Shown here piece by piece: positions 23,911 through 46,640 of a stretch of 64,000 bases of DNA. Below the pieces are notes generated by a model. The model saw only the letters and a list, made by a program, of their open reading frames with translations. It was not told the DNA's origin and did not search any database. The stretch's first letter is position 1, and each line of letters begins with the position of its first letter. A program made the position numbers and the translations under genes. Location: contig JASSKH010000025.1 in assembly GCA_031763025.1 (NCBI GenBank), forward strand, positions 3,844,001 through 3,908,000, in the 5' to 3' direction. The DNA is from Macrocystis pyrifera (lineage: Eukaryota > Sar > Phaeophyceae > Laminariales > Laminariaceae).

Positions 23911-24350
23911 AAACGGCTGGAAACTCCCTCCGGACCTTGGTATCTAGCCGGTGTACCACGCTCGCTACTCTGGAAGCTGTTTCTCGCTCTTCCCTTATTG
24001 GCATCTCCGGCGGGCGAGAACGACAGTCTGAACCCTGGTGCAGTCCATACAAGGCGTGAAATCTATACAGCTGCCTGGAAGTGAAACCTGTACTCACCTC
24101 ACCCGGATCCCATTGGGGACTACTCCCACACTTACGTGTCTCCACCAGGAATACGTGCAGCTGCAGCTGAGTAATACTCTCGAAGATTCCCGTCAAGCCA
24201 GTTAAAACGTACTCGCATACTCACGTGTTTGCGACGTCCTTCGAGAGCTTGCGATCGGTCATCGTGTACAACGGTTTCCGCCAAAGTGTACTTCTCGGCA
24301 AGTTTTCTATCCGATCCCCCGACCAGGTGCGCGAGCCATATCGACGGCAT
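23911..24350 (-). CDS. Candidate small-intron gene fragment
   Basis: An open segment on the minus strand ending SQALEGRRKH is followed by GTGAGT (donor near 24220). A second donor GTAAGTGTG lies near 24137, and a pyrimidine-rich acceptor TTTCACTTCCAG near 24080 opens into QLYRFHALYGLHQG, which runs to a stop near 23911. Implied introns are only about 60 bp. No family is recognised; the exon boundaries are inferred from consensus only. Confidence 0.25.
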
Positions 24351-25180
24351 TGCCAGGTCGGAGCATTAATGAAATGTCTTGATGCCCACTGCGAAAACCG
24401 TCTTCCTCTGGGTTTGGCAATGCACCCGTCCACGTACATTTTGTCAAACGTCCATGACAGGCATCACAATAATCAATGACAGACATGACAAACGTTTAGC
24501 CTCGGCCTGATACCCATCAGTGACAGGCCTGACTAACGTCAACGGAACGCATGGTGGGTGAAGATCTGGGGTGAAACGCCGAATCCATCACTCAGAGTAC
24601 TTCTTCGTTTCACTGAGGAGGCGAAGACTTGCAGAGTCCCGATAATGCTTTCTGTAGCCACTCTCGCATAGTTCGACAGATCCCTGCCCCCGGGTGTGGT
24701 TGACGAGACCGTAGCACACCGACTCTTTTAGCGACTAGCACAGGGGGTTCACGGCTGTAAACTTCCCCCCTGCATTGCCCCGGACCAACAATAGCGATTC
24801 CGACACGCACATCGCTCAGTGTGAGGCTTTACCGCGAGTGCCTCCTTCGACGGCACAGGACACGTGAGCAAAGGATGTGCTCGCTTCTTCCACCAAGGAC
24901 AACACAAACTCGAACCTATTACCTGTTTGCATCCCCTGCTTAAGGTCTGATATGTACATCTCAGGGACCTTCCACGATTGTAGGGTGCCAGTGAGTAATA
25001 CTGTCACTTGCGTGGTCACCCATTTGCTACTCCTGCGCTTATATAAGAGCACATACCTCCTTGGCTAGCGTGGGCTACTTACACTTGCCCTGGGTCAGAA
25101 AAGTTGGGTATGCCACGCCCGGACCACCAAACGTGTTGCGAACCAAGGCGAACAACTCCGATATCATTGCCACCGATGTA

Positions 25181-25893
25181 GGGTCTTGGGGGGATCCGCG
25201 GGAGGTGTACCGTCGTCATGCACGGGGATGTTGTCGTGCAGGGCGTGAACGTCGATAACAGCTGAGGCCGGAGGTGACGTTGCGCGGAGACCTTGCAGTG
25301 CTGAGACCGGAATTTATATGAGGGGAGAGGAGGAAGTCCCCAGAAGGTCGCCTGGTTCAAGATCAATGAATCTCGAGAGCGGGATATTTTTGTAGCCGAT
25401 GGCGACGAAGATTTCGGTTTCGGAGTCAAGGCCGTCGCGGGGAATCATGTCAACGAGGTAGTGGCCGGAGGGTGCCGGAATGCCGGAGAGACGCACCAGA
25501 TTAACCTGGACGAGAGACGGCGTAGCCGAAAGTGAGACTGCGTGAGCGCCGGCGAACTCGAGGTGTAGGGTGTCGGGAGAAGGTCGGTTGTCTTGGATGA
25601 AAGTGGAGAGGCCATTCGCGTAAGAAGTAGTTAGGGAGAGCTCGTCAAAGAGCGGTCGCGAGGGGAGGCGAGGCAAGGGTTGCGTACGTGCGTTGTTCGA
25701 ACCGCATCCAGCTATCGCGTCCCAGTAGAACGGGGTGTTGCATAGCTCCATGTGGCACGATGCACGCCCATACGGCGATCTCGGCGGAGGGAGTGCTGTC
25801 GTGCAAGAACCGGATGCTGAGTCGGACGGAAATCGAGGAGCGGAGCGGATTTACCAAAGCCGCCCAAGGAACGAGGGAGAGCGTGTTGTTCAC
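25181..25893 (-). pseudogene. Protease C-terminal region / pol linker, copy A
   Basis: Continues the protease after the NADAR-protease frame stops, in two further frames (about 25893-25645, then 25751-25314). The second frame ends in a stop within a segment that stays open in copy B (GDLLGTSSSPLI region). Near-identical to the beginning of the 1,031-residue pol frame at 37232. Truncated at the arm boundary, so copy A has no RT. Confidence 0.75.
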
Positions 25894-25930
25894 AGATGCC
25901 CGACGCAGCGTTGTTGCGCTTCATACGGGC

Positions 25931-27496
25931 TCAAGCTTCAGCGGAGATGAAGGTCCGGGGGGAGCCGGTGTCCAAGATAGCTACAAGGCCGTAGCGTTTG
26001 TATGCGGAGGGTCCACTGTGTACTCTAATCCTGGTCGTGAAGAAGGCGTCGTCGACGGTAACGATACCGCTCGAGAGGCCTGGTCCGTGTTCGGCAATGA
26101 GGGAGGAGAGCGCAGGAGGGAGAGCAGCTCCGGACGAAATATCAGAGACCAGTGCGTGCGGAGGGGTGGCTGAAGGGAAGGAAAGGGGGCAGTAGGCGAT
26201 CCAGCGTGGAGTGCGGTGTAGAAGCTGGAACGTTTGCGCTGATCTCGTGGATCCCATTTTCGGAGGGTGAGACGCGAGAGGCGCGGAGGGGGCGGGCGGG
26301 AGTGGAGGGGGGGAGGCAAGCTGGTGGTGGATCTTCATGAGGATGTCGCCCAACAGGTTGAGTCCCGGCCAATGTGGAGGCTGTAAGGCTCGTGTATCGT
26401 CACACCTGAAGCCGATGCCCCAGACGAGGTCGTAAGGACTTGCTTCGGCGAGGAACTTGTCGCTGGTGTGTACGAGCTGTTGTGGTAAAGGGGGAGCCGA
26501 AAACTTGGCGAGGTTGCCCTTGAAAACGATGTCGTACCTATGCTGTATCCAAAGCTCTTGATTACAATTGGAGACGGAGCGGCCGAGGCGTTTTTGTTGT
26601 GCGGGATTCGGAGAGGACATGATCTTCCGGCGAGTTGCTGTGTCGCCGAAAAGCTTGGCCTTTTCCGACATCATGTACTGTTCCGCACAGTTGTAGTGCT
26701 CGTTGTCTACGGTGAACGTCGAAGGGTACCACTGGGAAAAGACCGAGGAATGAACCCAAACAAAAAGAATTTGGGAGGGGCTCAGGGTCGAGGGGAGTGG
26801 AGAGGGGGACGTTGTGTGGGACGTTGTCGGGGAAGGCGTGGGTGAGACGACTTCGATCCCCGAAAACGTGTGGGGTAAGGTCGATTGCGACGAAGCCCCG
26901 GGAGGATGTACGTGACGGCGAGACGCTCGTGACGGAGCACCCTGGGAGTCCCTGCTATCAGCATTTAACGTATGCGGAGGGGGGAGTAGCTCGGAAGAAA
27001 ATGCGGTACCTGTAGTTGTCCGTGACCGGGGCGTGGGTGTCGGTACAGGTGGCTCCTGGCATATTCTTGGTGACTTGGTCGAGTCTTCCGCGGTTGAATC
27101 CGCGGGAAAACCGTCCCTTGGGCCCAGGGAGAGTGGTGTGGTCAGCACGGGGCGGGCAGCTACGAGTCCGGGAGATCCTGCAGAACCAACGGAGGTCGAA
27201 GTGTGTGCTGTCCGGGGTCGACGGACGCCGGTTGACGTGTGCCGATAACATCGTTCGTCAGAGGACGTAGATGAGTTGGGGGTCGATGGCCCTGGGAGAC
27301 GATCAGAGCCGGAGAGGGAGTAGATACCGCTGTTGGCCGTTGTTGTCGGGTCGCCCACAAGATTGGCAAGATCTGCAGACATTTCGGTAATGTTGGTCAA
27401 GGTGCGGCGTCGCGCATCGACTGGGGACACCGAGGGAAGCATTGAGGGAGTGCTCGGTGTGCCCTCCTCCTGCCACTCACACCTCAAACCAACCAT
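25931..27496 (-). CDS. NADAR-domain/aspartic-protease pol segment, copy A
   Basis: A 521-residue frame. Residues 1-240 are a Ser/Thr/Pro-rich linker. Residues about 244-393 form a NADAR (YbiA-like, DUF1768) domain: FSQWYPSTFTVDNEHYNCAE at about 253-272, the QYMM..KAKLFGD helix, NLAKFS, the EASPYDLVWGIGF signature at 351-363 and a GLNLLGDILM motif at 378-387. After about 110 residues comes a retropepsin active site, LVAILDTGSPRTFIS (DTG at 509-511, 25972-25964). NADAR proteins act on ADP-ribose or related N-glycosides: E. coli YbiA on riboflavin-pathway intermediates, and DarT1-partner NADARs on ADP-ribosylated guanine. The pol frame is -1 relative to gag and has no conserved requirement for the Met at 27496. 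The frame ends by a lesion just after DTG. The domain call is confident; its role in the element is inference. Confidence 0.85.
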   Translation of the reverse strand: MVGLRCEWQEEGTPSTPSMLPSVSPVDARRRTLTNITEMSADLANLVGDPTTTANSGIYSLSGSDRLPGPSTPNSSTSSDERCYRHTSTGVRRPRTAHTSTSVGSAGSPGLVAARPVLTTPLSLGPRDGFPADSTAEDSTKSPRICQEPPVPTPTPRSRTTTGTAFSSELLPPPHTLNADSRDSQGAPSRASRRHVHPPGASSQSTLPHTFSGIEVVSPTPSPTTSHTTSPSPLPSTLSPSQILFVWVHSSVFSQWYPSTFTVDNEHYNCAEQYMMSEKAKLFGDTATRRKIMSSPNPAQQKRLGRSVSNCNQELWIQHRYDIVFKGNLAKFSAPPLPQQLVHTSDKFLAEASPYDLVWGIGFRCDDTRALQPPHWPGLNLLGDILMKIHHQLASPPPLPPAPSAPLASHPPKMGSTRSAQTFQLLHRTPRWIAYCPLSFPSATPPHALVSDISSGAALPPALSSLIAEHGPGLSSGIVTVDDAFFTTRIRVHSGPSAYKRYGLVAILDTGSPRTFISAEA

Positions 27497-27594
27497 TTGA
27501 ACAAGGGAGCCAACCCTAGATCGAGGGGTTGATCTTGAAGATAGGTTAGAAGGGGGGGAAAAAGAGGGGGAGGGGTCGGGAGAGCCGACGGCTC

Positions 27595-29046
27595 CTAAAC
27601 AATACGCTGCCCGAGGGTCCAGAGAGGTCCTCGGCGCGGTCGCGTGTAGTGCCGTTGGTGAAGTCGCGAGCGGTTCTTCACCATCGGCTGGTCAGCTAGT
27701 ACGGAAGGTGCCCAGTTGCCGGGAGGTTTGATTGACTCCGTGTTGTGAAGAACCGAGGCGCATGCTGTTGGGATAGTGGGGGTCTGGGTTGTCGGACCGG
27801 TTACGGTGAGGGCAGATGAGGGAGGTCCTGGAGGGGAGGGGGGGGTGAGCTTTGGTGCCGAATTATCCCGAAAGTGGTGGTTGTTAGGAGAGTAGTTTGT
27901 CCACTGAGAGCCTGCAGTACGGTGGGAGTTGCCGTGGGAGCGCCAGTTTTTAGAATGGGAGTTGGACCGGCGGTTGTTATTGGAATTGCCGGCAGAGTTG
28001 TGTCCGCTCGAGTTGGAACGGTTGGAAAAAGAGTTCGAGTTCCGATGAGCATGGCGTTCATATTGTTCCCGACGGTATGAGAGCACACGTTGTTGCCACT
28101 GTTGCAAAACGTAGCCTCTGTCGTTGAGCTGGCCGAGCCGAGAATTGAGCACACCTGACTTGTTTATGAAGGGACTCTGACACGTCTTTACGCTGTGGTC
28201 CTGCCCACCACAGGGGAGGCATACGCCACGCCATGTGCGAAGAGCAGTCGCTCTGGCAGTAGCGCCAAGGAGAGGGCTCCAGAGGGGGGGGTCGGAGGTC
28301 AAAAACGTGGTGGACACCATGTACACTTCGTCGAAGTGTTCGAGAGACTGGTGGTCGTAACCCAGAGTGAAAGGGTCAATGTCTGGGGACGTAGATACGT
28401 TAATGACATAGGGGTTGCGTTGGGAGCCTTGTTGGTTTGGGTTGGAATAATTGCGCGAATGCGTCTGCTGAGCAGGAGCCGATGACGGCGGGGACGACGA
28501 AAACGTCGTGCGGCCTCCTGGGGAGGTATAGGAAATATATGTTTCGCCATTTATTGCAGGTGTGTTATTCGTAGCGCACACTTCATGAGCCTGCCACATG
28601 GCCGAGGCCGAAGGGAAAGGTTTCACCGCAGTCATCAATTCACCCGGGTACACAACCGGAGTCAAAGCAGGAAACTGTCTACTAATACTGGTCCGCACTA
28701 CCTCTAAGACCATGGCGTCGCTAGGCTTAAAGACCTTTTCAGAACCTTGTACCACGGATGTCAACTGCCTCAAAGCCCGCAAAAGTGTTGAATACACCGT
28801 GCCCGTTGGTACTCCAAACGTTTGAAGCTTCTCGAATGCGCGGCCTTGGTCGCCGTGGTCGAAGCGCGTGCTGAGCAGACGCAAGAGTAAGCGAAAGGCA
28901 GATGGGCCGGCGTTGTCCTTCTCCCGAAGGTGATCGCGCACCTGCTTAAAACGTTGTTGATGAAGAGGGACATCGGGGAGTTGGTTCCTGTCTTGATTGC
29001 TTTCCGGAAACACCGGTGACGCGGGGTGATCCATCCTGGTGACCAA
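27595..29046 (-). CDS. Gag C-terminal region with CCHC zinc knuckle, copy A
   Basis: 483 residues. A helical capsid-like region (about 30-150, including FRLLLRLLSTRFDHGDQGRA and VFKPSDAMVLEVVRT) is followed by a Ser/Pro linker, a classical C-x2-C-x4-H-x4-C knuckle (Cys276, Cys279, His284, Cys289) and an Asn/Ser-rich, basic nucleocapsid-like tail. The stop at 27595 is followed by a pyrimidine-rich spacer before the Met of the NADAR frame. It is joined to the preceding gag part by a frameshift near 29040. Confidence 0.8.
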   Translation of the reverse strand: MVTRMDHPASPVFPESNQDRNQLPDVPLHQQRFKQVRDHLREKDNAGPSAFRLLLRLLSTRFDHGDQGRAFEKLQTFGVPTGTVYSTLLRALRQLTSVVQGSEKVFKPSDAMVLEVVRTSISRQFPALTPVVYPGELMTAVKPFPSASAMWQAHEVCATNNTPAINGETYISYTSPGGRTTFSSSPPSSAPAQQTHSRNYSNPNQQGSQRNPYVINVSTSPDIDPFTLGYDHQSLEHFDEVYMVSTTFLTSDPPLWSPLLGATARATALRTWRGVCLPCGGQDHSVKTCQSPFINKSGVLNSRLGQLNDRGYVLQQWQQRVLSYRREQYERHAHRNSNSFSNRSNSSGHNSAGNSNNNRRSNSHSKNWRSHGNSHRTAGSQWTNYSPNNHHFRDNSAPKLTPPSPPGPPSSALTVTGPTTQTPTIPTACASVLHNTESIKPPGNWAPSVLADQPMVKNRSRLHQRHYTRPRRGPLWTLGQRIV

Positions 29047-29760
29047 CGGAGGGAGTCTAGAGTACCGTTCGGGGAGTCGTCACGGCGTGAGAGAATATCC
29101 GCTAAGACAAGTTTGGCGCTAGCTATGAGTTGTTGAACTCCTACACAGTCGTCGGTTCCCGCAGGAAAAGGGAGTGGGTCGATGAGCTCCAATTTTCGAG
29201 AGTCCAAGTCGATGTACTTGCGGTTGACTTCAAAGTCGTGGGTACTAGCTGCAGTGATTTGGGGCGTAGTGGGAGTTGCGGCAGGGGGGACCGGTGCGGG
29301 AGTGGGGGTGACCGGAGTGGAAGTGGGTGCGACTGGGTGTTGAGGGAGTACCGATGTAGTGAGGATCGTGCTGTTTGGGAGAGGTGTTGGAGCCTGCACT
29401 GGCGCAATGGGGATTGCGAGACCGGGCGCGGTAGGAGGCGAAGGGGCCTGAGCTGCGACGGTGGTTGCATGGCTGAGCAGGGGGGTGAGGGTCGCTGGAT
29501 ACTGTGGAGGTACTGGTGCAATGGAGATTGCGTTGTTGTGGGTGGTGGCGGGAGCCGGCAACGGTGCAATAGAGATTGTTCGACCGGGCGCCGCGGGATA
29601 AGGGAGGGTCAGGGCCGCAACGGAAGCTGTATTGGAAGGCAGTGGGGGGGGAGCTACTTGATACCGTGGTGGTAGCGGTGTAATGGAGGCTGTGTTTGGA
29701 GGCAGTGACGAGAGAGGCCCTGAATACTGAGGTGGTAGCTGTGTAGTGGGAGTTGCGGTA
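28770..29760 (-). CDS. Gag middle region, Pro/Ala-rich, copy A
   Basis: In the same frame as the N-terminal gag but separated from it by the TTAA-flanked insertion. Dominated by Pro/Ala/Thr repeats of the type SIAPxPPQYPA, an oligoproline-like linker. It then leads into a helical stretch (NRKYIDLDSRKLELIDPLPF...). This segment is missing from copy B. The frame runs past the real reading into an overlap with the C-terminal gag because of an indel near 29040. Confidence 0.65.
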
Positions 29761-29764
29761 TTAA

Positions 29765-29853
29765 TCCCTTTAGTACCGCAGTCCCGATTTGGGGACAAAC
29801 CAGTCTAATTCCAAGTGATTTGTCCCCAAAACTGGACTGCGGTACTAAAATGG
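29765..29853. mobile_element. 89-bp MITE with TTAA target duplication
   Basis: Imperfect TIRs (TTTAGTACCGCAGTCC / GGACTGCGGTACTAAAA) enclose a second inverted pair, TTTGGGGACAAA/TTTGTCCCCAAA. The element is flanked by TTAA at 29761-29764 and 29854-29857, the signature of piggyBac-type insertion. Insert plus one TTAA is 93 bp, a multiple of three, so the gag frame is the same on both sides and the only damage is a stop codon inside the MITE. Confidence 0.8.
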
Positions 29854-29857
29854 TTAA

Positions 29858-31370
<1,513 letters not shown>

Positions 31371-31641
31371 TGTTGCTGTTGGCAGAAGCCGACGACAAGA
31401 GAGCGAAGGGAGGGGGGGAGGGAGGGGAGAGGAACAGGTATGAGCCCTAGGAGATCATGCCATGTGGCGTAGCGAGCGGGGTGTGGGGGTGTGGGGGGGG
31501 GGGGGGGGGGGCTTGGGAGTGCTGTCATCCATGTGCGAGCAAGGTTTATAGTGGCCGGTCGCGGTGATGGAGTGTGTTCGTGTGCGCCCTCCGTCCGCCT
31601 GAGTGTACTGAAGATTCGTTTGGCGGTCTGGTTTAAGCCTA

Positions 31642-31746
31642 TTACGGGGGTCCATAGTTAACAGGACCTATGGTATACATAAAAACCTATATACTTACCT
31701 ATTTTCACCAACAAAATTTGGTCCCGTTAACTATGGACCCCCGTAA
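31642..31746. mobile_element. 105-bp MITE, TIR TTACGGGGGTCCATAGTTAA, TA duplication
   Basis: Perfect terminal inverted repeats of 22 bases flanked by TA (31640-31641 and 31747-31748). The asymmetric interior, AGGACCTATGGTATACATAAAAACC on one side and CACCAACAAAATTTGGTCCC on the other, matches the two ends of the 3.67-kb element at 11320-14985. It sits between the gag start and the 5' region of retroelement copy A. Confidence 0.9.
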
Positions 31747-31749
31747 TAG

Positions 31750-33243
31750 ATATATTTGGGCTCTGGTAGCCCCGCTCGTGTCCCGTGATGGAAGGAGGTA
31801 TAGAGATACGACCTTGTAGACCCGTCTGAAGATAAAGTGTAGAGACACTTCTGCGCACTAGGCTGTAGTAACGGAGTGTAGAGACACTCCGTTTGTTCGC
31901 AACAGTATTTGAATTTCTTGAACGACGCCAGCTGACTCGGGGGTTTCGTACTGGGAGGGGTGGAAAAGAGACCCGTGCCCGGGTTGGTTTGGGAAGGTGG
32001 GAGTCATATACCCGGGAGAGGAAGGGGAGGGAAAAACCGAACAACAATAAAAAAGAATGCAAAAGCCCGGAGGAAGGTGGTCACGGGAAGGTGGTGTCCG
32101 TCGAACGGGTGGAAGAGGGTACCCTACCAATCATGTACTTGACTCGCTTTGTGATTTTAAAGACAAAACTCTCGGTAAAATCATCATCCAATTGTTGACT
32201 CTGTGTCTGAAGACCGCTGTGGGTTGCTGTCCGATTGAGAGACCGAATAATAGTACTGGTATTCGCGTCTTCTACGTCGCGAAATGTGTTAGTAGTCGTC
32301 AACGGTTCGGCTGAATTTTTATCCGGAAAAGAATTTCCATCAGCACGGCCCAAACTCCCAGTCGCACCGTCTAAAATTCCGTCGCATTTATTCAAGGCTG
32401 CAAAACGTGCAAATCGAGGAAGAAAATGCTATTAGGATTGCTCAAAATTTCTCTCGCATCGCCGAAGATTCCACTATATTCATCCAAAACTGTACAAATG
32501 TGCACGTCTGGAAAAATATGCGATTATGCCTGTCCAAAATGAGTGGTGTATCGTTGAAAATTTCGTCATAGTTTTCCAAAGCTGCAAAAGTGTGCAAATC
32601 TGGGAAAACAATGCGATTAGAACTACGACGAAATGTTCAACGTTTCACCACTCATTGTAGACAGGCATAATCGTAATTGTTTGTGCAGTTTTGGATGAAT
32701 ATAGTGGAACCTTCGGCGATGCGAGAGAAAGTTTGAGCAGTCCTAATGGCGTTTTCTTCCTCGATTTGCACGTTTTTGCAGCCTTGAATAAATGTGACGG
32801 AATTTTAGACGGTGCGACTGGGATTTTGGGCCGTGCTGATGGAAATTATTTTCCGGATAAAAATTCAGCCGAACCTTTGACGACTACTAACACATTTCGC
32901 GACGTAGAAGACGCGAATACCAGTACTATTATTCGGTCTCTCAATCGGACAGCAACCCACAGCGGTCTTCAGACACAGAGTCATCAATTGGATGATGATT
33001 TTACCGAGAGTTTTGCCTTTGAATCACAAAGCGAGTCAAGTACATGGTTGGTAGGGTACCCTCTTCCACCCGTTCGACGGACACCACCTTCCCATGCCCA
33101 CCTTCCTCCGGAATATTGCATTATATTTTATTGTTTTTCGGTATTTCCCTCCCCTTCCTCTCCCGGGTATATGACTCCCACTTTCCCAAACCAACCCGGG
33201 CACGGGTCCCTTTGCCACCCCTCCCAGTACGAAACCCCCGAGT
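31750..33243. other. Facing 5' regions (LTR/leader) of the two retroelement copies
   Basis: About 31934-32573 and 32621-33240 are mirror images and lie upstream of gag in each copy, so they should hold the LTR/5' leader. Open frames here (for example plus 32691-33476) are probably not coding upstream of about 33240: their conserved parts, such as TGTGACGGAATTTTAGACGG, are simply shared DNA. The spacer between arms is 32574-32620 (47 bp). I found no copy of this sequence downstream of pol, so an LTR cannot be demonstrated. Confidence 0.5.
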
Positions 33244-34070
33244 CGAGGGAGCGGGACGAGATCGATCGCGCCGAGAAACTGGTGGCCTCACTGCGGGCCA
33301 AACATGCCCTGACTCTGGCCTCTCAAGGCCTCGACCCCACTCCCTTCCACGCGGTTTCGGCCGCTGCCTCGACTTCCGGCCTCGGTCCTACTCCCCCTCG
33401 CACGGACCCGGCTACTACCCCCCCCCTTCCACTGGGTCTCTTTCTCCTACCCCGACAACTCTGGGCTTCGTCCTAGAATTTACGGACATCGCGTTCATCC
33501 ATACCACGATACGTCAACTAATATCGTCACAATATGTCCCGGAGGCCAGTCGGGCAGCCATCTCCTCGGCCGCCTCGGCCATCAAAGGATACTATCGTTC
33601 AGGAATCACCACCCTCCAGCAGGCCCTTGAGACTCTTCCGAACGTAATTAACTTCAGCGTTCGAACCAAACTCCTCAGGCTGGTAGAAATTTTGAAGACT
33701 TTCCACTCCTCCACCCACCATACCTGGCCGCCCGTTGCAGAATATAGCGCCTCCCGCGGTCAGCGCCAACAGCGGACGATGGGTTGCTCGGATGGTCGTC
33801 TCCCGGTCACCCGCAGGCGCCCGGACGACGACCATGATCGCGACAGCGACGACAACAACCCCAACAACCGTACCTCCGACATCTCAGCCCGCCGCGCGTC
33901 ATAGGTCAGCTCGACAATACGCCCCCGGTCCGGCAACAGCGGACCTTCCCCTCCGCCTGAACAACGCCCACGGAAGCACAGTGATGGCGACTATTTTTCT
34001 CCTCGTCAACCGACGAGGACCACATCTCCGAGGCCAACAGGTGCGCGATCACTTTCGGGAGAAGGACAAC
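33243..34070 (+). pseudogene. Gag N-terminal/middle region, copy B, deleted
   Basis: Begins abruptly in the coiled-coil-like helix (SRERDEIDRAEKLVASLRAK) joined to leader DNA. It lacks the ATG, the SAP-like region and the Gly tract. The capsid-like part (FTDIAFIHTTIRQLISSQYV) is split between frames. A second deletion near 34039 joins it to the C-terminal gag. Alignment to copy A is obvious throughout. Confidence 0.75.
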
Positions 34071-35386
34071 GCCGGCCCATCTGCCTTTCGCTTACTCTTG
34101 CGTCTGCTCAGCACGCACTTCGACCACGGCGACCAAGGCCGCGCATTCGAGAAGCTTCAGGCGTTCGGAGTACCAACGGGCACGGTGTATTCAACACTTT
34201 TGCGGGCTTTGAGGCAGTTGACATCCGTGGTACAAGGTTCTGAAAAGGTCTTTAAGCCTAGCGACGCCATGGTCTTAGAGGTAGTGCGGACCAGTATTAG
34301 TAGACAGTTTCCTGCTTTGACTCCGGTTGTGTACCCGGGTGAATTGATGACTGCGGTGAGACCTTTCCCTTCGGCCTCGGCCATGTGGCAGGCTCATGAA
34401 GCGTACGCTACGAATAACACACCTGCAATAAATGGCGAAAATAATTTTCCTATACCTCCCCAGGAGGCCGCACGACGTTTTCGTCGTCCCCGCCGTCATC
34501 GGCTCCTGCTCAGCAGACGCATTCGCGCAACTATTCCAACCCAAACCAACAAGGCTCCCAACGCAACCCCTATGTCATTAACGTATCTACGTCCCCAGAC
34601 ATTGACCCTTTCACTCTGAGTTACGACCACCGGTCTCTCGAACACTTCGACGAAGTGTACATGGTGTCCACCACGTTTTTGACCACCGACCCCCCCCTCT
34701 GGAGCCCTCTCCTTGGCGCTACTGCCAGAGCGACTGCTCTTCGCACATGGCGTGGCGTATGCCTCAACTGCGACGGACAGGACGACAGCGTAAAGATGTG
34801 TCAGAGTCCCTTCATAAACAAGTCAGGTGTGCTCAATTCTCGGCTCGGCCAGCTCAACGACGGAGGCTACGTTTTGCAACAGTGGCAACAACGTGTGCTC
34901 TCATACCGTCGGGAACAATATGAACGCCATACTCATCGGAACTCGAACTCTTATTCCAACCGTTCCAACTCGAGCGGACACAACTCTGCCGGCAATTCCA
35001 ATAACAACCGCCGGTCCAACTCCCATTCTAAAAACGAGCGCTCCCACGGCAACTCCCACCGTACTGCAGGCTCTCAGTGGACAAACTACTCTCCCAACAA
35101 CCACCACTTTCGGGATAATTCGGCACCAAAGCTCAACCCCCCCTCCCCTCCAGGACCTCCCTCATCTCCCCTCACCGTAACCGGTCCGACAACCCAGACC
35201 CCCACTACCCCAACAGCATGCTCCTCGGTCCTTGACAACACGGAGTCAATCAAACCTCCCGGCAACCGGGCACCTTCCGTACTAGCTGACCAGCCGATGG
35301 TGAAGAACCGCTCGCGACTTCACCAACGGCACTACACGCGACCGCGCCGGGGACCTCTCTGGACCCTCGGGCAGCGTATTGTTTAG
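34039..35386 (+). pseudogene. Gag C-terminal region, copy B, altered zinc knuckle
   Basis: Carried in two frames (33735-34619, then 34655-35386) with an indel near 34440-34620. The capsid-like helices match copy A. The knuckle reads C-x2-C-x4-D-x4-C: the zinc-binding His of copy A is Asp here. The Asn/Ser-rich tail and the terminal LGQRIV-stop are conserved. The stop is followed by GAGCCGTCGGCTC and a C/T-rich spacer, as in copy A. Confidence 0.75.
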
Positions 35387-35484
35387 GAGCCGTCGGCTCT
35401 CCCGACCCCTCCCCCTCTTTTTCCCCCCCTTCTAACCTATCTTCAAGATCAGCCCCTGGATCTAGGGTTGGCTCCCTTGTTCAA
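35387..35484 (+). promoter_or_regulatory. Gag/pol junction, -1 frame overlap
   Basis: Pyrimidine-rich stretch between the gag stop and the first pol Met. The pol frame is open across it and back into the gag 3' end for at least 60 nt, in the -1 frame relative to gag. The same offset exists in copy A (27497-27594). The inverted GAGCCG/CGGCTC directly after the stop could form a small stem. This is consistent with programmed -1 frameshifting or reinitiation. I could not identify a slippery heptamer. Confidence 0.4.
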
Positions 35485-36836
35485 ATGGTTGGTTTGAGGT
35501 GTGGGCGGCAGGAGGCGGGCACACCGAGCACTCCCTCAATGCTTCCCTCGGTGTCCCCAGTCGATGCGCGACGCCGCACCTTGCCCAACATTACCGAAAT
35601 GTCTGCAGATCTTGCCAGTCTTGTGGGCGACCCGACAACAACGGCCAACAGCGGTATCTACTCCCTCTCCGGCTCTGTTCCTCCCCCAGGGCCATCGACT
35701 CCCAACTCATCTACGTCCTCTGACGAACGATGTTATCGGCACACGTCAACCGGCGTCCGTCGACCCCGGACAGCACATACTTCGACCTCCGTTGGTTCTG
35801 CAGGATCTCCCGGACTCGTAGCTGCCCCCCCGTGCTGACCACACCACTCTCCCTGGGCCCAAGGGACGGTTTTCCCGCGGATTCAACCGCGGAAGACTCG
35901 ACCAAGTCACCAAGAATATGCCAGGAGCCACCTGTACCGACACCCACGCCCCGGTCACGGACAACTACAGGTACCGCATTTTCTTCCGAGCTGCTCCCCC
36001 CTCCGCATACGTTAAATGCTGATAGCAGGGACCCCCAGGGTGCTCCGTCACGAGCGTCTCGCCGTCATGTACATCCTCCCGGGGCCTCGTCGCAATCGAC
36101 CTTACCCCACACGTTTTCGGGGATCGAAGTCGTCTCACCCACGCCTTCCCCGACAACGTCCCACACAACGTCCCCCTCTCCACTCCCCTCGACCCTGACC
36201 CCCTCCCAAATTCGTTTTGTTTGGGTTCATTCCTCGGTATTTTCCCAGTGGTACCCTTCGACGTTCACCGTAGACAACGAGCACTACAACTGTGCGGAAC
36301 AGTACATGATGTCGGAAATGACCAAGCTTTTCGGCGACATAGCAACTCGCCGGAAGATCATGTCCTCTCCGAATCCCGCACAACAAAAACGCCTCGGCCG
36401 CTCCGTCTCCAATTGTAATCAAGAGCTTTGGATACAGCATAGGTACGACATCGTTTTCAAGGGCAACCTCGCCAAGTTTTCGGCTCCCCCTTTACTACAA
36501 CAGCTCGTACACACCAGCGACAAGTTCCTCGCCGAAGCAAGTCCTTACGACCTCGTCTGGGGCATCGGCTTCAGGTGTGACGATACACGAGCCTTACAGC
36601 CTCCACATTGGCCGGGACTCAACCTGTTGGGCGACATCCTCATGAAGATCCACCACCAGCTTGCCTCCCCCCCTCCACTCCCGCCCGCCCTCCGCGCGTC
36701 TCGCGTCTCACCCTCCGAAAATGGGATCCAGGAGATCAGCGCAAACGTTCCAGCTTCTACACCGCACTCCACGCTGGATCGCCTACTGCCCCCTTTCCTT
36801 CCCTTCAGCCACCCCTCCGCACGCACTGGTCTCTGA
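35485..36836 (+). CDS. NADAR domain segment of pol, copy B
   Basis: The Ser/Thr/Pro-rich linker begins at 35485 and changes frame near 35825. The frame at 35730-36836 carries the NADAR domain at about 36213-36662. All signatures of copy A are retained: the CAEQYMMSE helix, KRLGRSVSNC, the FKGNLAKFS strand, EASPYDLVWGIGF and GLNLLGDILMKIHHQL. I count about five amino-acid differences from copy A over roughly 150 residues (for example KAKLFGDTA versus MTKLFGDIA), none in those signatures. A 2-nt deletion just after the domain shifts the protease into the next frame. Confidence 0.85.
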
Positions 36837-37231
36837 TATTTCGTCCGGAGCTGCTCTCCCTCCTGCGCTCCCCTCCCTCATTGCCGAACACCGACCAGGC
36901 CTCTCGAGCGGTATCGTTACCGTCGACGACGCCTTCTTCACGACCAGGATTAGAGTACACAGTGGACCCTCCGCACACAAACGCTACGGCCTTGTAGCTA
37001 TCTTGGACACCGGCTCCCCCCAGACCTTCATCTCCGCTGAATCTTGGGCCCGTATGAAGCGCAACAACGCTGCGTCGGACATCTGTGAACGACACGCTCT
37101 CCCTCGTTCGTGGGGCGGCTTAGGTAAATCCGCTCCGCTCCTCACGTCGATTTCCGTCCGACTCAGCATCCGGTTCTTGCGCGACAGCACTCCCTCCGCC
37201 GAGATCGCCGTATGGGCGTGCATCGTGCCAC
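36661..37231 (+). CDS. Aspartic protease segment, copy B
   Basis: Frame 36661-37482 carries VTVDDAFFTTRIRVHSG and then LVAILDTGSPQTFIS, a retropepsin active site with DTG at 37006-37014. Pol continues in a different frame from 37232, so another indel lies in the overlap. Position between NADAR and RT matches copy A. Confidence 0.75.
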
Positions 37232-39587
37232 ATGGGACTATGCAACACCCCGTTCTACTGGGACGCGATAGCTGGATGCGGTTCGAACAACGCACGTACG
37301 CAACCCTTGCCTCGCCTCCCCTCGCGACCGCTCTTTGGAGAGCTTTCCCTAACCGCTTCTTGCAAGCCTCGCCTCTCCACTTTCATCCAAGACAACCGAC
37401 CTTCTCCCGACACTCTACACCTCGAGTTCGCCGGCGCTCACGCAGTCTCACTTTCGGCTACGCCGTCTCTCGTCCAGGTTAATCTGGTGCGTCCCTCCGG
37501 CATTCCGGCACCCTCCGGCCACTACCTCGTTGGCATGCTTCCCCGCGACGGCCTTGACTCCGAAACCGAAATCTTCGTCGCCAACGGCTACCAGAACATC
37601 CCGCTCTCGAGATTCATTGATCTTAAACCAGGCGACCTTCTAGGGACTTCCTCCTCTCCCCTCATACTAATTCCGGTCTCAGCACTGCAAGGTCTCCGCG
37701 CAACGTCACCTCCGGCCTCAGCTGTTATCGACGTTCACTCCCTGCACGACAACATCCCCGTGCATGACGACGGTACACTCCCCGCGGATCTCCCCAAGAC
37801 CCCTTGCCCCAAACTCCTGGAACGCCTAACTGCCGACCAACGGACAAGCTTCCTCCGCCTCTGGGACCGACGTCCGCTATACTTTCGTGAAATATCCTTC
37901 GACCTCCGCGGTTCTGGTTGGTCCCCTTCGGTCATCACAGCTCTGGGGGACGTTCTTTGCGAGTTTCCCGACGTTTTCTCCACGTCCAAAACCGACTTCG
38001 GCTCGTGCTCCCTTATTCCGTTCAAGATTTCCGTCCCCCCGGATGGCGCCCCCGTCTTTTCCCGCCCTTACCGCATCAACCCTATCCTCGCCAAAACGGC
38101 CGACGCTGTGCTCGACCAATATCTGGCTGCCGGTCTGATCCAACACTCCACTTCCCCATACGCCAGCCCTATGGTCGCCATTCCCAAGAAAGACGGCAAT
38201 GTTCGGATAACCGTGAACTTCAAAAAGCTTAACACCATCAGCTCCCTGGGCCAACTGCCCATCCCCCGCGTCGACGAGGTTCTCGGCCCCCTCGGTAAAC
38301 GCCGCATCTTCTCCCTGTTCGATCTCGTGTCTTCGTTCCACCAAATCAACATCGACAAGGACACCATCTTCTGCACGCCCACCCGACTCTTCGAGTGGCT
38401 TGTCATGCCCCAAGACAGAAGCACCGCGCCCGGCTGGTTTGCCAAGGTCATCAACGAGGTCATCAAAGACCTTGACCGCGTAGCGGCCTACCTCGACGAC
38501 GTCATAGTTTTCAACCCCGACCTCGCGGCCCACGTCGCCAATATCCGCTCCCTTTTCGAACGCCTGCGAAAACACAACCTCAAGCTATCCCCGTCCAAAG
38601 CCAAGCTTGGCGCTACCAGCGCCGACTTTTTGGGACACACCATTTCCTCCTCCGGCGTTAGCCCTAACGCCGACAAAGTTGCCACCCTAACTCAGATGCC
38701 CATGCCTACGAACACCAAGCAAGTGCGCTCACTCCTCGGAGGCATTGGATACTACCGTACATTCCTGAAGAATCTCTCCACTCGGCTCCGACGCATTAGC
38801 ACCCTGCTCAAACAAGGCGTTAAGTTCGTTTTCACCCCGGAAATGGAAACTATCGTTGGCCAGATCCTCCACGAACTCGCTACCCCTCCGATCTTGGTAT
38901 ACCCAGACTGGGATGCTGTTGCCGACAACTCCCGACCTTTTCGCCTCTACTGCGACGCCAGCATCGACGGCTTTGGCGCGACTCTCGAACAAGAACAACT
39001 CGACGCTTCCGTCCGTCCCATCGTCTTTATCAGCCGCACCACTCGCGACAACGAACGATCTTGGACCCCCCTCGACCTCGAAGCCGGTAGCATCGTTTGG
39101 GCCATGAAACGCCACCTCGGGTCCACCAAGTTCCACATCTACTCTGACCACAAGACACTTGAGAGTATCGCTAACGCCCGTGAACACAATGCTCGCGTCC
39201 AACGCTGGCTGGAATTCCTCTCCGCCTACTCCTACACCTTGGAGTACCGGAAAGGCTCAGCTAATGGTAATGCCGACTTTCTGTCGCGACTTCCACGACC
39301 AGCGACCGATCTCGACCGCACCGGACCCAACCGCCTCACTCCTCCCGACACCATCGGTATCTACCATATCCAAGCCTGCGGTTTTACTCCGATCGACCCC
39401 TTCACCCCGGGCATCGGTTTGGGTGGGCTTGTCCCACCCTCAACCGCTCCCTGGGACACCATCCCACCACTCCCTTGCACCGAAAACGACTTTGGCGATT
39501 TCCGCCGACACGGACCACGGATGGACAACTCGGACTTGGTTCTTACCCCCTGCTCTACTATGACTTCTACCGCCGTTCAAGATCTCG
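37232..39587 (+). CDS. Ty3/gypsy reverse transcriptase and RNase H (NADAR element)
   Basis: First part of a 1,031-residue frame. After the protease tail comes RT: RPYRINPILAKTADAVLDQY entry, PKKDGNVRITVNFKKLN, motif A FDLVSSFHQI, a motif B-type region, motif C AYLDDVIVF with both Asp present, FLGHTISSSG and YYRTFLKNLS connection. RNase H follows with its acidic residues: LYCDASIDGFG, DLEAGSIVWA, IYSDHKTLE and NADFLSRLP. This is the best-preserved RT in the window. The first third shares the inverted repeat with copy A up to 37801. Confidence 0.9.
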
Positions 39588-40181
39588 CCGCTGGATCACC
39601 TCGCAGTCTTCCCGCCGGCCCCCGCTTTGCCCAAGACACTGCCGCTGGATCGCCTCGCAGCCTTCCCGCCGGCCCCCGCTTTGCCCAAGACACTGCCGCT
39701 GGATCGCCTGACAGCCCTCTCGCCGGCCTCCGCCTTGCTCAAGCTCCCGCCGCTGGTCCTCCTCACAGCCCTCCCGCCGGCCCCCGCCTTGCTCAAGATC
39801 CCGCCGCTGGACCGCCTCGTAGCCTTCCCGCCGGCCCCCGCCTTGCTCAAGATCCCGCCGCTGGACCGCCTCGTAGCCTTCCCGCCGGCCCCCGCCTTGC
39901 TCAAGATCCCGCCGCTGGACCGCCTCACAGCCCTCCCCCCGGCCTCCGCCTTGCTCAAGATCCCGCCGCTGGACCGTCTCGCAGCCCTCCCGCCGGCCTT
40001 CGCTTTGCTCAAGATCCCGCTGCTGGACCGCCTGGCAGCCCTCCCGCCGGCCTTCGCCTTGCTCAAGATCCCGCTGCTGGACCGCCTCGCAGCCCTCCCG
40101 TCGGCCCCTTCCTTGCTCAGAACCCCGCCGCCGGTCCGCCTCGCAGTCTGTCCACCACCCCCCGCTTTGCTCAAGACCCCA
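39588..40181 (+). repeat. 54-bp tandem repeat x11 coding 18-residue units
   Basis: Eleven 18-residue units of the type AAGPPRSLPAGPRLAQDP between RNase H and integrase, in frame with both. The 594-bp array has no stop in several frames, which explains long spurious open frames on both strands. Unit-to-unit variation (S/P, R/H/D/G, L/F) shows it has been diverging, not freshly amplified. Confidence 0.95.
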
Positions 40182-40327
40182 CCGTCAACTCGCTTCGCAG
40201 CGCCTTCGTCGGTCACCTCTCTATCCTCGACTCCATCGCCGAATCGCCTTTCAGCTCCGAGAAAGCCGCCGTGACCGCTGGCGCTCCTGCTGGTGTGGCG
40301 TTCAGGCCACCCTTCGTCCCCCCATAG
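40182..40327 (+). CDS. End of RT-RNase H frame, in-frame TAG before integrase
   Basis: The frame ends in TAG at 40325-40327. The integrase frame beginning at 40334 is the same frame, so only this one stop separates the two parts of pol. It may be a simple lesion; suppression cannot be judged from one copy because copy A lacks this region. Confidence 0.6.
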
Positions 40328-40333
40328 CCCACC

Positions 40334-41830
40334 TTGGGCGTCTCACCTTCGTCCACTCCTCGTACCTCGTCAAGCCTAATTTCTTCTCGGACCCGTCGCC
40401 GTTCTGCCGCTGCTGCAGGGACCCCCCTTACTCCTACAGACTACGGATTTGGCCGTCGATCGTCAACTACGGCAGTCACAAGGCCTTCACCAACCCACCG
40501 CCGTCCACCTGCCGTCGCACCCAGGCCACTGCCTCGGCGACCGGATGCAGTTCGTCGCGGCGCTGCTCAAGACTCGCCCTCACCAGCGACTCCAGCCGGC
40601 GCTATGCCACCAGTGCCCCTGCCACCACCACAGTCCACCGCCCCAGGGCCTTTTCCCCCGCCCTCCCCTACTGAGTCACTCCCACTACCTGAACCCGTTG
40701 TCCGGTCTGCTGACGACCTACACCTTAGTTCCTGCGTTGAGCGTTATACCTCCACCGATTGGGCGCGCGAACAACGCACCGAACCCCTTTGCTCAGCTAC
40801 CATACGATATCTTTCCTTGGGCTCACCTTCACCACCACCGGGCGACCTCTCAGACTACATTCCCTCGACCCGTCGCCAACTTTTCTCGAAGGTCCTCGCC
40901 TTCGCCGCGAAATGCCAGCTGCATAAAACCGACGACGAATCAGTCCTTCTCGTTTCTCGGACACTCAGCAAGCTTATGCGGTTCTACTGGTGGATCGGCG
41001 TGGACATCTCCACCCCCTGGTGGCTCCGCCGCTGGCTCAAGCGTCAGGCGCGAAAGTCTTCGCGCCAAACAATTCGTTGGCCCACCCTCTCCCTGCCGCT
41101 ACCTAACGGCCCCGGTATACTCGTCAGCGTCGACTATTTCGGGTCCTTACCCATCACGCCTCGGGGCAACGCCTACGTCCTGCTTTTCACCGACCGTTTC
41201 AGCCGCCGCGCCGACATGTACGCCACTCCTGAAGCCGAGTTCACAGCATCCGGCACGGCCGACATGCTCGTCGATCGCTACATCCCTCTCTGGGGATACC
41301 CCGTCACTCTCCTTTCTAACAACGGCTTTCAATTCTGCGCCAAACTCTCCCGTGCCCTCTACGAACGCCTCGGCATTTACAAAATCTCCACGAGTTCCTA
41401 CCACCCATGCACCAACGGCGGTGTCGAACGCGTCAACCACATCATGGCCTTGATGCTCGCCATGGTCGGCAACGAACTAAAAACCGATTGGGACTTGCAT
41501 CTCCCTCACATCGAAAACACCTACAACAACTCCGTCAGCGCCGCGACCGGGCTGGCCCCCAACGAAGTACACATTGGCCGACTGCCACGCCTCCCCCTCT
41601 CCGTGTTCGACTCTCCCAACATTGGCAGACATCAAAGCCTCAACCGGGACCAGCTCGCTTACATTGACCTCGCTACTGCTCGCCAGCAACGCGCCTACCG
41701 CGCCGTCCGGGAACTCCACGCGGTCTACGTCTCACGCCTCGACTGCCGCAACGCCCCCATCATGGACGCCCTCCGCCTTTCCCCTCCGTTCTCTGTCGAC
41801 GGTTGGACATGGATCTACAACACCGCTGCT
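40334..41830 (+). pseudogene. Retroelement integrase with altered catalytic and zinc residues
   Basis: A Pro/Ser-rich leader of about 130 residues is followed by the integrase zinc-binding region and core. The HHCC module is degraded: the expected Cys pair before QARK is replaced by Trp and Arg. The core reads VSVDYFG (first Asp), LLSNNGFQF where the second Asp should be (Asn codon at 41318-41320), and NGGVERVNH (Glu). It continues NTYNNSVSAATGLAPNEVHIG, typical of Ty3/gypsy integrases. The frame is lost near 41830. This copy is unlikely to integrate. Confidence 0.85.
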
Positions 41831-42775
41831 ACTATTTGCAGGCACCGACGCCACCGTTCTCAAGACCAAACTCTCCTTCAGCTGGATTGGCCCGTTCAAC
41901 ATTCTTGCCGTGGGCCCAGCACCAGCCTCAGCCGTTCCGGATGGACGGCCCCTTCACGACAAGCCCCTTTACTTCGACCTTCCCCCGGACATGCCGGGGC
42001 GAGACTCCGAGCACCGCGTCTCCGTTCTCCGCTGCAAACCCTGCCGGAACCCCGACGACATCGACGATCTCCCCAAACACCTACCGGCCGACCTAACTAA
42101 GTACGTGCTCAGCTCCTTCTCCATCAAGTCCCCGCCCTTCCACGTTAACTTCGACGACATCTCTCCACCGCCCGAACGCCTCGAGGTCGATCAGATCTCG
42201 AGACACCAACTCGTTCGTGGCCGGGGAGGCGTTCTCGCCGTGATGTACGAAACACACTGGGCCGCACTCCTTAGCCCTTCTTGGGAACACGAACGAGCCC
42301 TACAGCTCCACCGATTCCACATCCTCCGCTATTGGTCGGGCACCCGTTCACAGCACCGTCAGACCAACCGTTTATACCGCCAGATGCGCATCGGGACCGC
42401 TCACCGTGAACGTTCGCGGTCCCGGGGTGAAATCGTCCTCGCTCCCGGGTACAGCCTCGTACCACGCACACTCTGGCTTCACCGTTTCATCCCGGGGCAC
42501 ACCTCTGGTACAAGGCCCGCGATGGTCTCTGGTGGTTGGGCAAAGTTGCCCCGCGCCCCTCGACCGACACCTCCTCCGCTCATTCCTACATCGCCCACTT
42601 CCTCGACGACCCGGGCCCGATCAAGATCACACTCCTTCCGTCCCTCTACACCACTTCACGGAGCGCGACTCAAGGATCCTGGTGCCTTCAGCGTCATCAG
42701 GCCCGAGGACTAGCACGCGGAGTACTACGAAATGCTAATGCACCCCCCCCACCACTCATCCGACCGATTAGCTAA
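41760..42775 (+). CDS. Integrase C-terminal region with chromodomain-like tail
   Basis: Reading 41574-42713 carries the GPY/F-like segment (TKLSFSWIGPFNILAVGP) and a basic linker (RVSVLRCKPCRNPDD). Then comes VDQISRHQLVRGRGG...THWAALLSPSWEHERAL...FHILRYW, a chromodomain-like pattern as in chromoviruses. After another frame change, the last part (WWLGKVAP, FLDDPGPIKITL, GSWCLQRH; 42536-42775) looks like a second small chromatin- or RNA-binding module of unknown type. Assignment to chromovirus-like Ty3/gypsy is reasonable but not proven. Confidence 0.6.
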
Positions 42776-44030
42776 CCGTAGCTGATGGTCGGTGGATGGG
42801 TTAGATTGTCGTATACTAGTTTCGGGCCGGGATGTTCTGTGCGTTCGCTGTCTGGGACAAGCGTTCGTCTTGTGTGTTGATTCCATCTAGCACCCCACGT
42901 TCAGTTTGCTTCACTAGGACGCAATTCACAACAAAAAGTGTTATTGTACCTCCAGGGTCTACCTTTCTGTTGCACCTCATTTTTGCCTTGCCTTAAGGGT
43001 GGTCTTTCGGTCTGCTGGTCTTTCTTATTTTCCTCATTTCTTCTTTTTCTTTCCTTGTTGTCTCTCGTTCTTTTTCTTTTCTTTCTTCCCTTTCTTCTTT
43101 GTTCCTTTTCTTCGTTTTCTTTTTGTTTTGGTTAAAAACACCTAGCTAGAGACCTTGTTGTGTCCTTCTCGCTTTAGCTTCATGTGGACGTCGTCCCGCA
43201 TCAAGTCTGTTGCCGGCTTTTCCATTAGCTTCCTAGTTCGTGCCTTACCTTGCTCGATCTCTCCCGCCTTTCTCATAGGCCTACAACGCGGATAGCCACG
43301 AGGTTTTTCTATCGGGCCTACAGTAGCCGACCACCCCTTTGGCGTTCCTCGTATTCTACCACGGCCGACACCCTTTTCTGTCGTTGCTCTTTCGTTTCCT
43401 TCGCATTTTCCTTCTCTAGCACGAATGCTACCTGCCAGAGGCGTCTTGGCCTCATTTACGAGGTGTGGGTTGGTCTATGGTCTCATTGGGTTGTCGTTTG
43501 TTTTGAATAGCAGTATCTTCGACCCCCTCTTCCGAATTTCTAATGTCTAAGTAGCCATTTCTGTATCGTCGTGGGATCTGCATCTACGGCTATTCAGGGT
43601 GGGCTAATGTGATTGTTATTGCCCTCGATGAAATGCGTTCGAGCGCTGTTCTCAGTTTGCTTGTCTCTTTTTTTGTGAAGTCGCAGTGTAGTTGTTGAGA
43701 GCGACAGGAGAGGCCAGTCGGGACCAGCACAGACGGAACCCCAGAGTACTGTGTTTGGCTCAGGCAGAGCGTCTACTTGTTGACTATCGGTACCACTTGT
43801 TATCGTACTCGGCAGGGACATATATCCAGCAGCAGCACACGAAGACGGCACGAGCACCCGCACCAGTACCACAGCAATGGGACCGATATCATTGAGGTGT
43901 AATTGGGGTTTCAGGGCTAAATACAAGACTGTTGGCCAATGAAAAACGAAACATGAACGGGGAGAGAACTCCAACAATCAGGCAGAAAGCTGACGACTCT
44001 CTCTTAGCCAAAGCAAAACATGTCGGTTGT
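42776..44030. other. Downstream of NADAR element, no gene; polypyrimidine tract
   Basis: A strong T/C tract at about 43005-43130 (TTTCTTCTTTTTCTTTCC-like). No purine-rich PPT and no copy of the 5' leader sequence could be found by eye, so the 3' LTR of the element is not identified. Short open frames lack domains. Confidence 0.4.
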
Positions 44031-44317
44031 TTATTACAACAAGTAAACTACAGATTGACCAGAGATCTCTGTACCGCGAATAGTTGTTGTTGGCGAAATG
44101 AGAACTGAGGTGGATGCATGCTCTGGGGGGCAAGAGCTTGCCGCCGGCGTCCTACGGTATCCTCCCAAACCTGAAAAAAAGCCCATTTTTTTGTTGTGTG
44201 TTGTTACACATTCGACCGATTGACGTATTTTCAACTGCCGGATTATTTTTGCGAGTACCGAAACCTTCGATGAGAATCGCAAAATACAAATAAAGGCGAA
44301 AAGTATAAAGTAAAAAA
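44030..44317. repeat. Dispersed repeat module (A then B) upstream of Copia element
   Basis: Module A (44108-44193; GGTGGATGCATGCTCT, GGCAAGAGCTTGCC, CGGTATCCTCCCAAACCTGA) is shared with 50285, 50705 and 50975. Module B (44195-44315; TTGTTACACATTCGACCGATTGAC, GAGTACCGAAAC, AAATAAAGGCGA) is shared with 49790-49905. Confidence 0.75.
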
Positions 44318-44342
44318 CATCCAGGCTTGGACTCTACGAACA
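44318..44342 (+). repeat. 25-bp direct repeat bounding Copia element (5' copy)
   Basis: Begins CATCCAGGCTTGGACTC and ends GAACA. An identical 25-mer is at 49741-49765. Probably the 3' end of the LTR; in the 5' position the rest of the LTR is missing. Confidence 0.65.
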
Positions 44343-44387
44343 CACTAGTGTACTTGAACGTTTGAGGTCCGGCACAAGAAGCCCACG

Positions 44388-45639: not shown

Positions 45640-46640
45640 CGCCCTCCGCAGACTGCATGATCAACTATAGAGAATGAAACTTGACTTTCCGAATCGCTGA
45701 CGGATCCACCCGAGCGATCGAAGGTTACGGTGACGTGAGCGTTGTGTTTCGGTCCGGAAACGGTCCCGTGCAAGTGCTGCTTACGAACGTTGCGCACGTG
45801 CCGGATCTCCGCTACCACTTATTTTCCCTGCCCACTCTCGTCAAAAACGGCCAGACTTTCGAAAGGCGCCCCACGGGGGTTGTAGTCAGGCTCAAGTCAG
45901 AGCGTTCGATCGTGTTTTCGTTGAGTGGGACCCTCTGCAGCCTGTACGGCTACCGGGTCGACCGCAGTTGTGGGGAAAATGCCTGTGCTGTACTCGCCCC
46001 GGGGCAACTGCCCAACAAGTCTGCGATAAACATCAACGATTTCCACTGCGCTGCTGGACACTCCCACGAGGTACTACTTCGCAAGACCGCGGAGCAGCAA
46101 GGAATTGTCCTCGAGGGAGAGCTGCTGGAGTGCAAAGGGTGCTCCATGGAAAAGGGTCTCCGCAAAGGTATCAAGCAGTCCACACACACACGAGCAGATA
46201 AGAAGCTCGGGAGGGTTTTTGTGGATTTGAGTGGACCAAAGGTGGTCGAGTCTCTCGGGCGGAAGCGGTATACTCTCATCGTGCGCGACGAGTTTTCACG
46301 ATATACATGGGTGTACTTTGTGCGCCACACGTCGGACGCCGCGGAAATGATAGAGCAGTTCCTTGTGGATTTTCGTGCAGACGGTGTCCCTTCTACGGTG
46401 GTAATCGTCCGATCTGATGGGGGTGGTTAATTCCGCGGGGGAAAGTTTGGCGACCTGTGTCGATCACGAGGGATCAAGCAGGAATTCACGACGGCCGACA
46501 GTCCCCAATTCAATGGAGTAGCAGAGCGCGCGCTAGGTTTGATAGAGACGGCCGCAATGGCGGGCCGAATCCAGGCTCAAGAGCTTTTCCCTGGCGCGAA
46601 AATCCCGGCCACGACGTCGTTGTGGGCGGAGCGTCCTACT
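45600..46640 (+). pseudogene. Copia protease and integrase, with lesions
   Basis: The protease active-site region is at about 45610-45660 (SGASTHMTPS readable in one frame). A one-base deficit near 45615-45618 disrupts the catalytic Asp codon and shifts the frame. The frame from 45681 carries the protease C-terminal half (FRIADGSTRAIEGYGDV, NVAHVPDLRYHLFSL) and GAG-pre-integrase/HHCC (FHCAAGHSHEV, CKGCSMEKG). The integrase core follows: VFVDLSGP, then IVRSDGGG, then a TAA stop at 46428-46430, where Copia integrases normally have Glu. The same frame continues FRGGKFGDLC and SPQFNGVAERALGL. Confidence 0.85.

Follow-up and report, generated by a model that had tools for sequence, protein, structure and literature searches.

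Why would a retrotransposon carry a NADAR domain inside its Pol polyprotein? NADARs take ADP-ribose off guanosine in RNA (PMC11833690), and the question is raised by a window of 64,000 nucleotides from the brown alga Macrocystis pyrifera (contig JASSKH010000025.1, positions 3,844,001 to 3,908,000; coordinates below are those of the window), in which two copies of one element, copy A and copy B, lie head to head. Both copies are decayed and broken. The reading that we favour, at about even chances, is that they are a decayed pair of Ty3/Gypsy-type elements from the NADAR lineage known in Ectocarpus, and that the NADAR would act as an ADP-ribosyl hydrolase on the nucleic acid of the element itself.

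A NADAR domain between gag side and protease

The copies and their NADAR domains are placed as follows.

25181 to 32590, minus strand: copy A of the element, from the gag side to just before the reverse transcriptase (RT); the 3' side is cut off near 25181; paired with copy B through inverted-repeat arms; both ends approximate
32600 to 42770, plus strand: copy B of the element, from a gag remnant to the end of pol; ends approximate
25931 to 27691, minus strand: pol-side frame of copy A, open from stop to stop, with its first ATG at 27496
26318 to 26752, minus strand: NADAR domain of copy A, residues 249-393 of a 521-residue open reading frame (ORF); PF08719, E 6.3e-42
36228 to 36662, plus strand: NADAR domain of copy B, in the ORF 35730-36836; PF08719, E 7.8e-40

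A first, sequence-only reading of this DNA had placed a NADAR domain in the frame 25931-27496 on the minus strand, and the Pfam search bears this out. The copy A domain scores 144 bits against a cut-off of 35.1 and covers positions 9-162 of the 163 in the profile, and the motifs quoted in that reading are present in the frame. A chance match is ruled out by the E-values of both copies (6.3e-42 and 7.8e-40). The structural comparison to YbiA, which had been proposed as a check, finds the NADAR/YbiA fold, with 32% identity to 8bau and 28% to 2b3w in the structural alignments. Copy A keeps five pocket residues as mapped to 8bau (E272, K279, K302, E351 and D356), and its E351 aligns with E125 of 8bau, the last-strand glutamate of the YbiA type. 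Members of the YbiA subfamily have Glu at this position, against Asp in BC4488 and His in phage proteins (PMC11543638, PMC11125620). By its profile match, its fold, this glutamate and the lysine, the domain is a NADAR of the YbiA subfamily. In copy B the essential, phosphate-binding lysine (K50 in P. nicotianae) is lost through the change K279M.

From its first ATG the pol frame of copy A encodes a linker of about 240 residues, then the NADAR, then the DTG motif of the protease. The other features on which the type of the element rests are these.

27595 to 29079, minus strand: gag-side frame of copy A, open from stop to stop
28180 to 28221, minus strand: CCHC zinc knuckle of gag, copy A, CX2CX4HX4C, CLPCGGQDHSVKTC (motif scan)
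25964 to 25972, minus strand: DTG (DTGS) motif of the protease, copy A (from the sequence and an alignment with P0001)
37006 to 37014, plus strand: DTG motif of the protease, copy B (tblastn of P0001, position counted from the alignment), in a frame different from that of the copy B NADAR
38180 to 38644, plus strand: reverse transcriptase RVT_1, copy B; PF00078, E 4.8e-19
38924 to 39229, plus strand: RNase H, copy B; PF17917, E 1.3e-24
41105 to 41401, plus strand: integrase core, copy B; PF00665, E 6e-6, 26.9 bits, below the Pfam cut-off of 32.6

The NADAR does lie where it had been said to lie, downstream of the gag-side frame with its CCHC knuckle and upstream of the DTGS motif. We call this frame gag because of the knuckle and its position; Pfam gave no domain, gag included, in 27595-29046 or 29805-31370 on the gag side of copy A, where coding is spread over three frames (27595-29079, 28770-29804 and 29805-31454). 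At the matching place in copy B the knuckle His is an Asp. The pol frame of copy A overlaps the gag-side frame by 97 nucleotides, in the -1 frame. No slippery heptamer of the form X XXY YYZ was found in this overlap or in the 60 nucleotides before it, in either copy, and pol may be expressed by another type of recoding, or its translation may start anew at the ATG at 27496.

The frame had also been described as running uninterrupted from NADAR into protease. In copy A it is indeed open as far as the DTG motif, but the protease is truncated by a stop codon at 25931-25933, 10 residues past it. Between NADAR and DTG about 40 residues of copy A (about 402-442) are unlike the nearest relative, P0001, which copy B matches there, and past this stretch both copies again match P0001, copy B in a different frame. 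The openness of the frame hence looks like the result of two offsetting frame changes.

The order protease-RT-RNase H-integrase in copy B, with its integrase match below the Pfam cut-off, is that of Ty3/Gypsy elements, and together with the gag knuckle it points to an element of this type. The earlier assignment to a long terminal repeat (LTR) retrotransposon agrees with the knuckle and with this order, but no LTR pair was found in the self-comparison of the window, nor between 31000-33300 and 42700-44400, nor with 24000-25300; both copies look incomplete. The integrase of copy B reads SNNG in place of the SDNG of P0135, P0139 and P0143, at a position which we take to be the second catalytic Asp. 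Between RNase H and integrase the copy B pol frame also holds a tandem 54-nucleotide repeat (39577-40184), which encodes proline-rich repeats of 18 residues.

A lineage of elements with NADAR in Pol

The RT search matched 277 proteins, of which 120 were listed, and all counts on RT relatives refer to the matches listed. NADAR was found with phmmer in the same protein in 24 of the 120, and these are identical to the 24 that carry the PF08719 annotation. The search for NADAR in related elements, which the sequence-only reading had called for, thus rules out an accident at one locus, and the domain is common to a lineage of related elements. Three of the clusters concerned are P0156 with 415 sequences, P0160 with 126 and P0198 with 89. 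Half of the NADAR-bearing relatives (12 of 24) come from Ectocarpus sp. CCAP 1310/34, with NADAR and RT or RNase H in one chain, and Pfam finds NADAR, RT and RNase H together in P0142, P0147 and P0156. In relatives with long open frames the NADAR stands at the N-terminal side of Pol, ahead of the protease. Searches of viral and prokaryote collections gave no confirmed RT relative, with a single-protein query that reaches close relatives only. The NADAR ORF as query met 60 IMG/VR loci, by their tables with matches mostly over the NADAR part. P0020, a "NADAR family protein, partial" assigned to a Paracoccaceae metagenome-assembled genome, matches 65% of the window NADAR at 84% identity; its probable source is an algal contig that contaminates the bacterial bin.

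Whether the fusion had already been reported was left open by the sequence-only reading. It is in print: Dinatale et al. 2025 (PMC12477816) describe a NADAR-bearing Gypsy lineage of Ectocarpus sp. 7, for example Gypsy-12_Ec32, and suggest a bacterial origin for its NADAR. In this lineage, as in the window element, Pol has a NADAR of YbiA type on its N-terminal side (PMC12477816). Gypsy-12_Ec32 ends in a chromodomain after the integrase (PMC12477816); in the window no Pfam domain, chromodomain included, was found at E 0.1 in 41574-42713, where copy B is frame-broken. The window RT is 78% identical to P0135 and 68% to P0139, the best Ectocarpus-named relative among the matches listed. The NADAR identity to P0139 is 47%, in a comparison made with listed proteins and not with the published consensus sequences. 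By these values the window element looks like a further family of the Ectocarpus-type NADAR-Gypsy lineage. What we add to the published account is evidence at the level of residues and fold for a domain of competent type, its conservation next to RT, and this one further family.

The tree of RT (72 rows, each with an RT coverage of 80% or more, Gypsy-12_Ec32 not among them; quick method, midpoint root, no bootstrap) agrees with this placement. The 17 NADAR-bearing rows that entered it fall with the window in one group of 66 rows, with a support of 98 in the Shimodaira-Hasegawa-like approximate likelihood ratio test (SH-aLRT). Within it the window RT lies in a subgroup of 26 rows (SH-aLRT 100), where it is joined by NADAR-bearing RTs from Ectocarpus sp. 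CCAP 1310/34, P0139 and P0149 among them. None of the six rows outside the group of 66 has a NADAR, but in five the sequence is too short for this to be judged.

The trees of NADAR group the domains differently. The window type, with P0001, P0015-P0019 and P0023, is separate from the element NADARs of Ectocarpus type; the latter form a group with P0003, P0005, P0009 and two other proteins (support 97/92, and 93/90, not starred, in a second tree). A single clade of all element NADARs was not rejected by the approximately unbiased test (p-AU 0.097, 0.078, and 0.35 without P0004). For the clade that the 26-row RT group predicts, p-AU was 0.0498, a borderline value, with the long-branched P0004 and 0.29 without it; for the clade predicted by a narrower group of 16 rows it was 0.19, again without P0004. 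P0004 was dropped only after the 0.0498 result, and neither test included P0203, P0210 and P0219. One capture followed by descent thus agrees with the data and is the simplest account. The window family may even have replaced its NADAR, given that its RT nests with the Ectocarpus type and its NADAR groups apart in the free trees. A separate acquisition does not follow from this, since a common origin is not rejected.

P0003, P0005 (from the brown alga Pylaiella littoralis) and P0009 (listed with PF09409) are NADAR proteins that lack an RT domain and fall near the Ectocarpus-type element NADARs. It is possible that these three are donors or domesticated copies. The position of P0003 and P0005 beside the element NADARs makes a eukaryotic donor, or movement from element to host, worth weighing against the bacterial origin suggested in PMC12477816.

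NADAR has also been described in other replicating elements. The available descriptions of the P. nicotianae NADAR (8bau) and E. coli YbiA (2b3w) place both in the YbiA family and mention no retroelement Pol context. In the Pacific oyster NADAR occurs in ORF1 of a Tx1 long interspersed nuclear element (LINE; PMC12477816), thus like here in a retrotransposon protein, but of a non-LTR element. P0014, a protein of 481 residues with a C-terminal NADAR (residues 329-473) on a long separate branch of the NADAR tree, may represent this further class of NADAR-bearing retroelement; its N-terminal part is presumably LINE ORF1-like, with no Pfam hit to support this. Positive-strand RNA viruses of eukaryotes similarly carry NADAR or macrodomain modules within replication polyproteins (PMC9503650), though unlike the window element they use an RNA-dependent RNA polymerase and infect other hosts. 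In PMC9503650 the words retrotranspos- and retroelement are absent.

What the domain may do for the element

Our first evidence on function comes from the relatives. Eleven of the 24 NADAR-bearing RT relatives were dropped for domain coverage below 75%, which left 13 for residue counts. Lys279 and Asp356 are kept in all 13, and Glu272 and Glu351 in 12 each, the latter with one gap. In 14 pairs drawn from six NADAR-RT proteins the NADAR is 53-65% identical and the RT-RNase H part 55-67%; the pair P0156-P0160 (85% and 94%) was set aside. The flank before the NADAR is 27-34% identical in the 5 of these 14 pairs that have at least 50 aligned columns.

These values bear on the idea that the NADAR is a passenger, or a non-catalytic module that binds nucleotides or RNA, kept for structure only. 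The state of the window fits such a module, as both copies are decayed, copy B is without the essential lysine and the comparison of A with B shows no constraint. But four pocket positions are near invariant in the 13 RT-linked relatives, from families with RT differences of 33-45% in the pairs that were compared. A passenger should also have diverged along with its N-terminal flank, and not have been conserved about as well as RT. The pocket residues and this degree of conservation favour an enzyme, and we regard the passenger as improbable. In intact relatives the NADAR is probably functional.

For an enzyme in this position we propose a role as ADP-ribosyl hydrolase on element nucleic acid. 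The sequence-only reading had likewise inferred that the element brings its own de-ADP-ribosylation activity, and this finds partial support in the spread of the domain among related elements, in its fold and in the pocket residues. In intact relatives the NADAR would be made as part of Pol, enter the particle with it, and be released or used there; packaging into the particle and release by the protease would follow from general Gag-Pol biology. It would then strip ADP-ribose from guanines of the element RNA or complementary DNA (cDNA), and the benefit would be that a modification inflicted by the host is undone, or that an obstacle to reverse transcription is cleared. We favour guanine-ADP-ribose as substrate for two reasons: NADARs with the same set of residues are active on it in vitro, and it is in the particle that Pol meets nucleic acid.

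Two other enzymatic roles have to be weighed. Firstly, a Pol-borne NADAR might destroy diffusible ADP-ribose-type signals of the host, or derivatives of nicotinamide adenine dinucleotide, as a counter-defence that does not act on nucleic acid. Low-molecular-weight substrates have been proposed for phage NADARs (PMC9503650), and riboflavin intermediates are the substrate of E. coli YbiA (PMC11543638), to whose type the window domain belongs by the match of E351 to E125. A domain tied to Pol in a particle would however be oddly placed to clear a diffusible signal, and we consider this role unlikely. Secondly, the domain might take part in processing the RNA through which the element transposes, in a role that has nothing to do with host conflict. 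This possibility was raised by the discoverers of the lineage (PMC12477816), and NADAR has been linked to RNA-repair systems (PMC9503650). The available part of PMC12477816 names no particular step, and our results neither favour nor exclude such a role, to which we give the same rather low probability as to the clearing of signals.

Several observations weigh against hydrolysis of ADP-ribose on element nucleic acid as the answer. Between copies A and B, in the frame of copy A, the NADAR has 1 synonymous and 5 non-synonymous differences (152 codons), which suggests that the window copies have evolved without visible constraint since they split; the linker has 5 and 10 (242 codons), and the part after the NADAR 0 and 7 (125 codons, some in the doubtful stretch). 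All five pocket residues are kept in only 15 of 24 element NADARs (10 of the 13 RT-linked relatives and 5 of 11 further element-like NADARs), several of the others being fragments or decayed. Of the listed relatives, 17 have 400 or more residues ahead of RT; a NADAR is present in 12 of these and absent from five (P0145, P0153, P0159, P0167 and P0254). P0145, P0153 and P0159 sit among NADAR-bearing rows of the RT tree, and the domain is missing there through loss, frameshift or an error of the gene model. The copy A NADAR is 46-55% identical to nine non-element NADARs, and that of P0142 is 47% identical to copy A against 48-59% to eight non-element ones. Element NADARs thus resemble non-element ones about as much as they resemble one another, so that their RT-level similarity is partly a constraint common to all NADARs. 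Catalytic activity, packaging, substrate and benefit to the element are inferred. Finally, we know of no guanine-ADP-ribosylating enzyme in brown algae, where no search for one was made. A larger step, and an improbable one in our view, would be to suppose that retroelements of brown algae are, or once were, held off by a defence that ADP-ribosylates guanine, and that the particle-packaged NADAR of this lineage is the counter-weapon. The fusion allows two direct tests, namely whether retrotransposons need ADP-ribose removed from their own nucleic acid, and whether ADP-ribosylation of nucleic acid is a defence in algae.

Layout of the two copies and their surroundings

Self-comparison of the window shows that the head-to-head copies are the arms of one inverted repeat. 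Copy B at 34038-37802 is 97% identical to copy A at 28944-25181 across 3.77 kb, and further arms of 84% to 98% extend toward a centre near 32.59 kb. Similarity of copy A to copy B ends near 25181, upstream of RT; this point was taken as the outer bound of copy A and the palindrome centre as its inner bound. The near-palindrome thus runs from 25181 to 37802 with its centre near 32590, and the innermost arms found end at 32498 and 32680, 181 nucleotides apart. It may have arisen by inverted duplication, by two insertions or as a fold-back artefact of assembly. Two stretches of copy A are missing from copy B, one of about 0.9 kb (31019-31933) and one that encodes poly-glycine (about 30804-30938).

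Beyond copies A and B no NADAR was found elsewhere in the window (tblastn of P0001, E 1e-3). The window holds two more retroelement remains. A Ty1/Copia-type element lies at 45681-48907, with RVT_2 (E 3.5e-48) in 47555-48907 and Pol_BBD with a weak rve match in 45681-46430. At 561-2149 on the minus strand there is a second Gypsy-type RT-RNase H, which is 27% identical to P0135.
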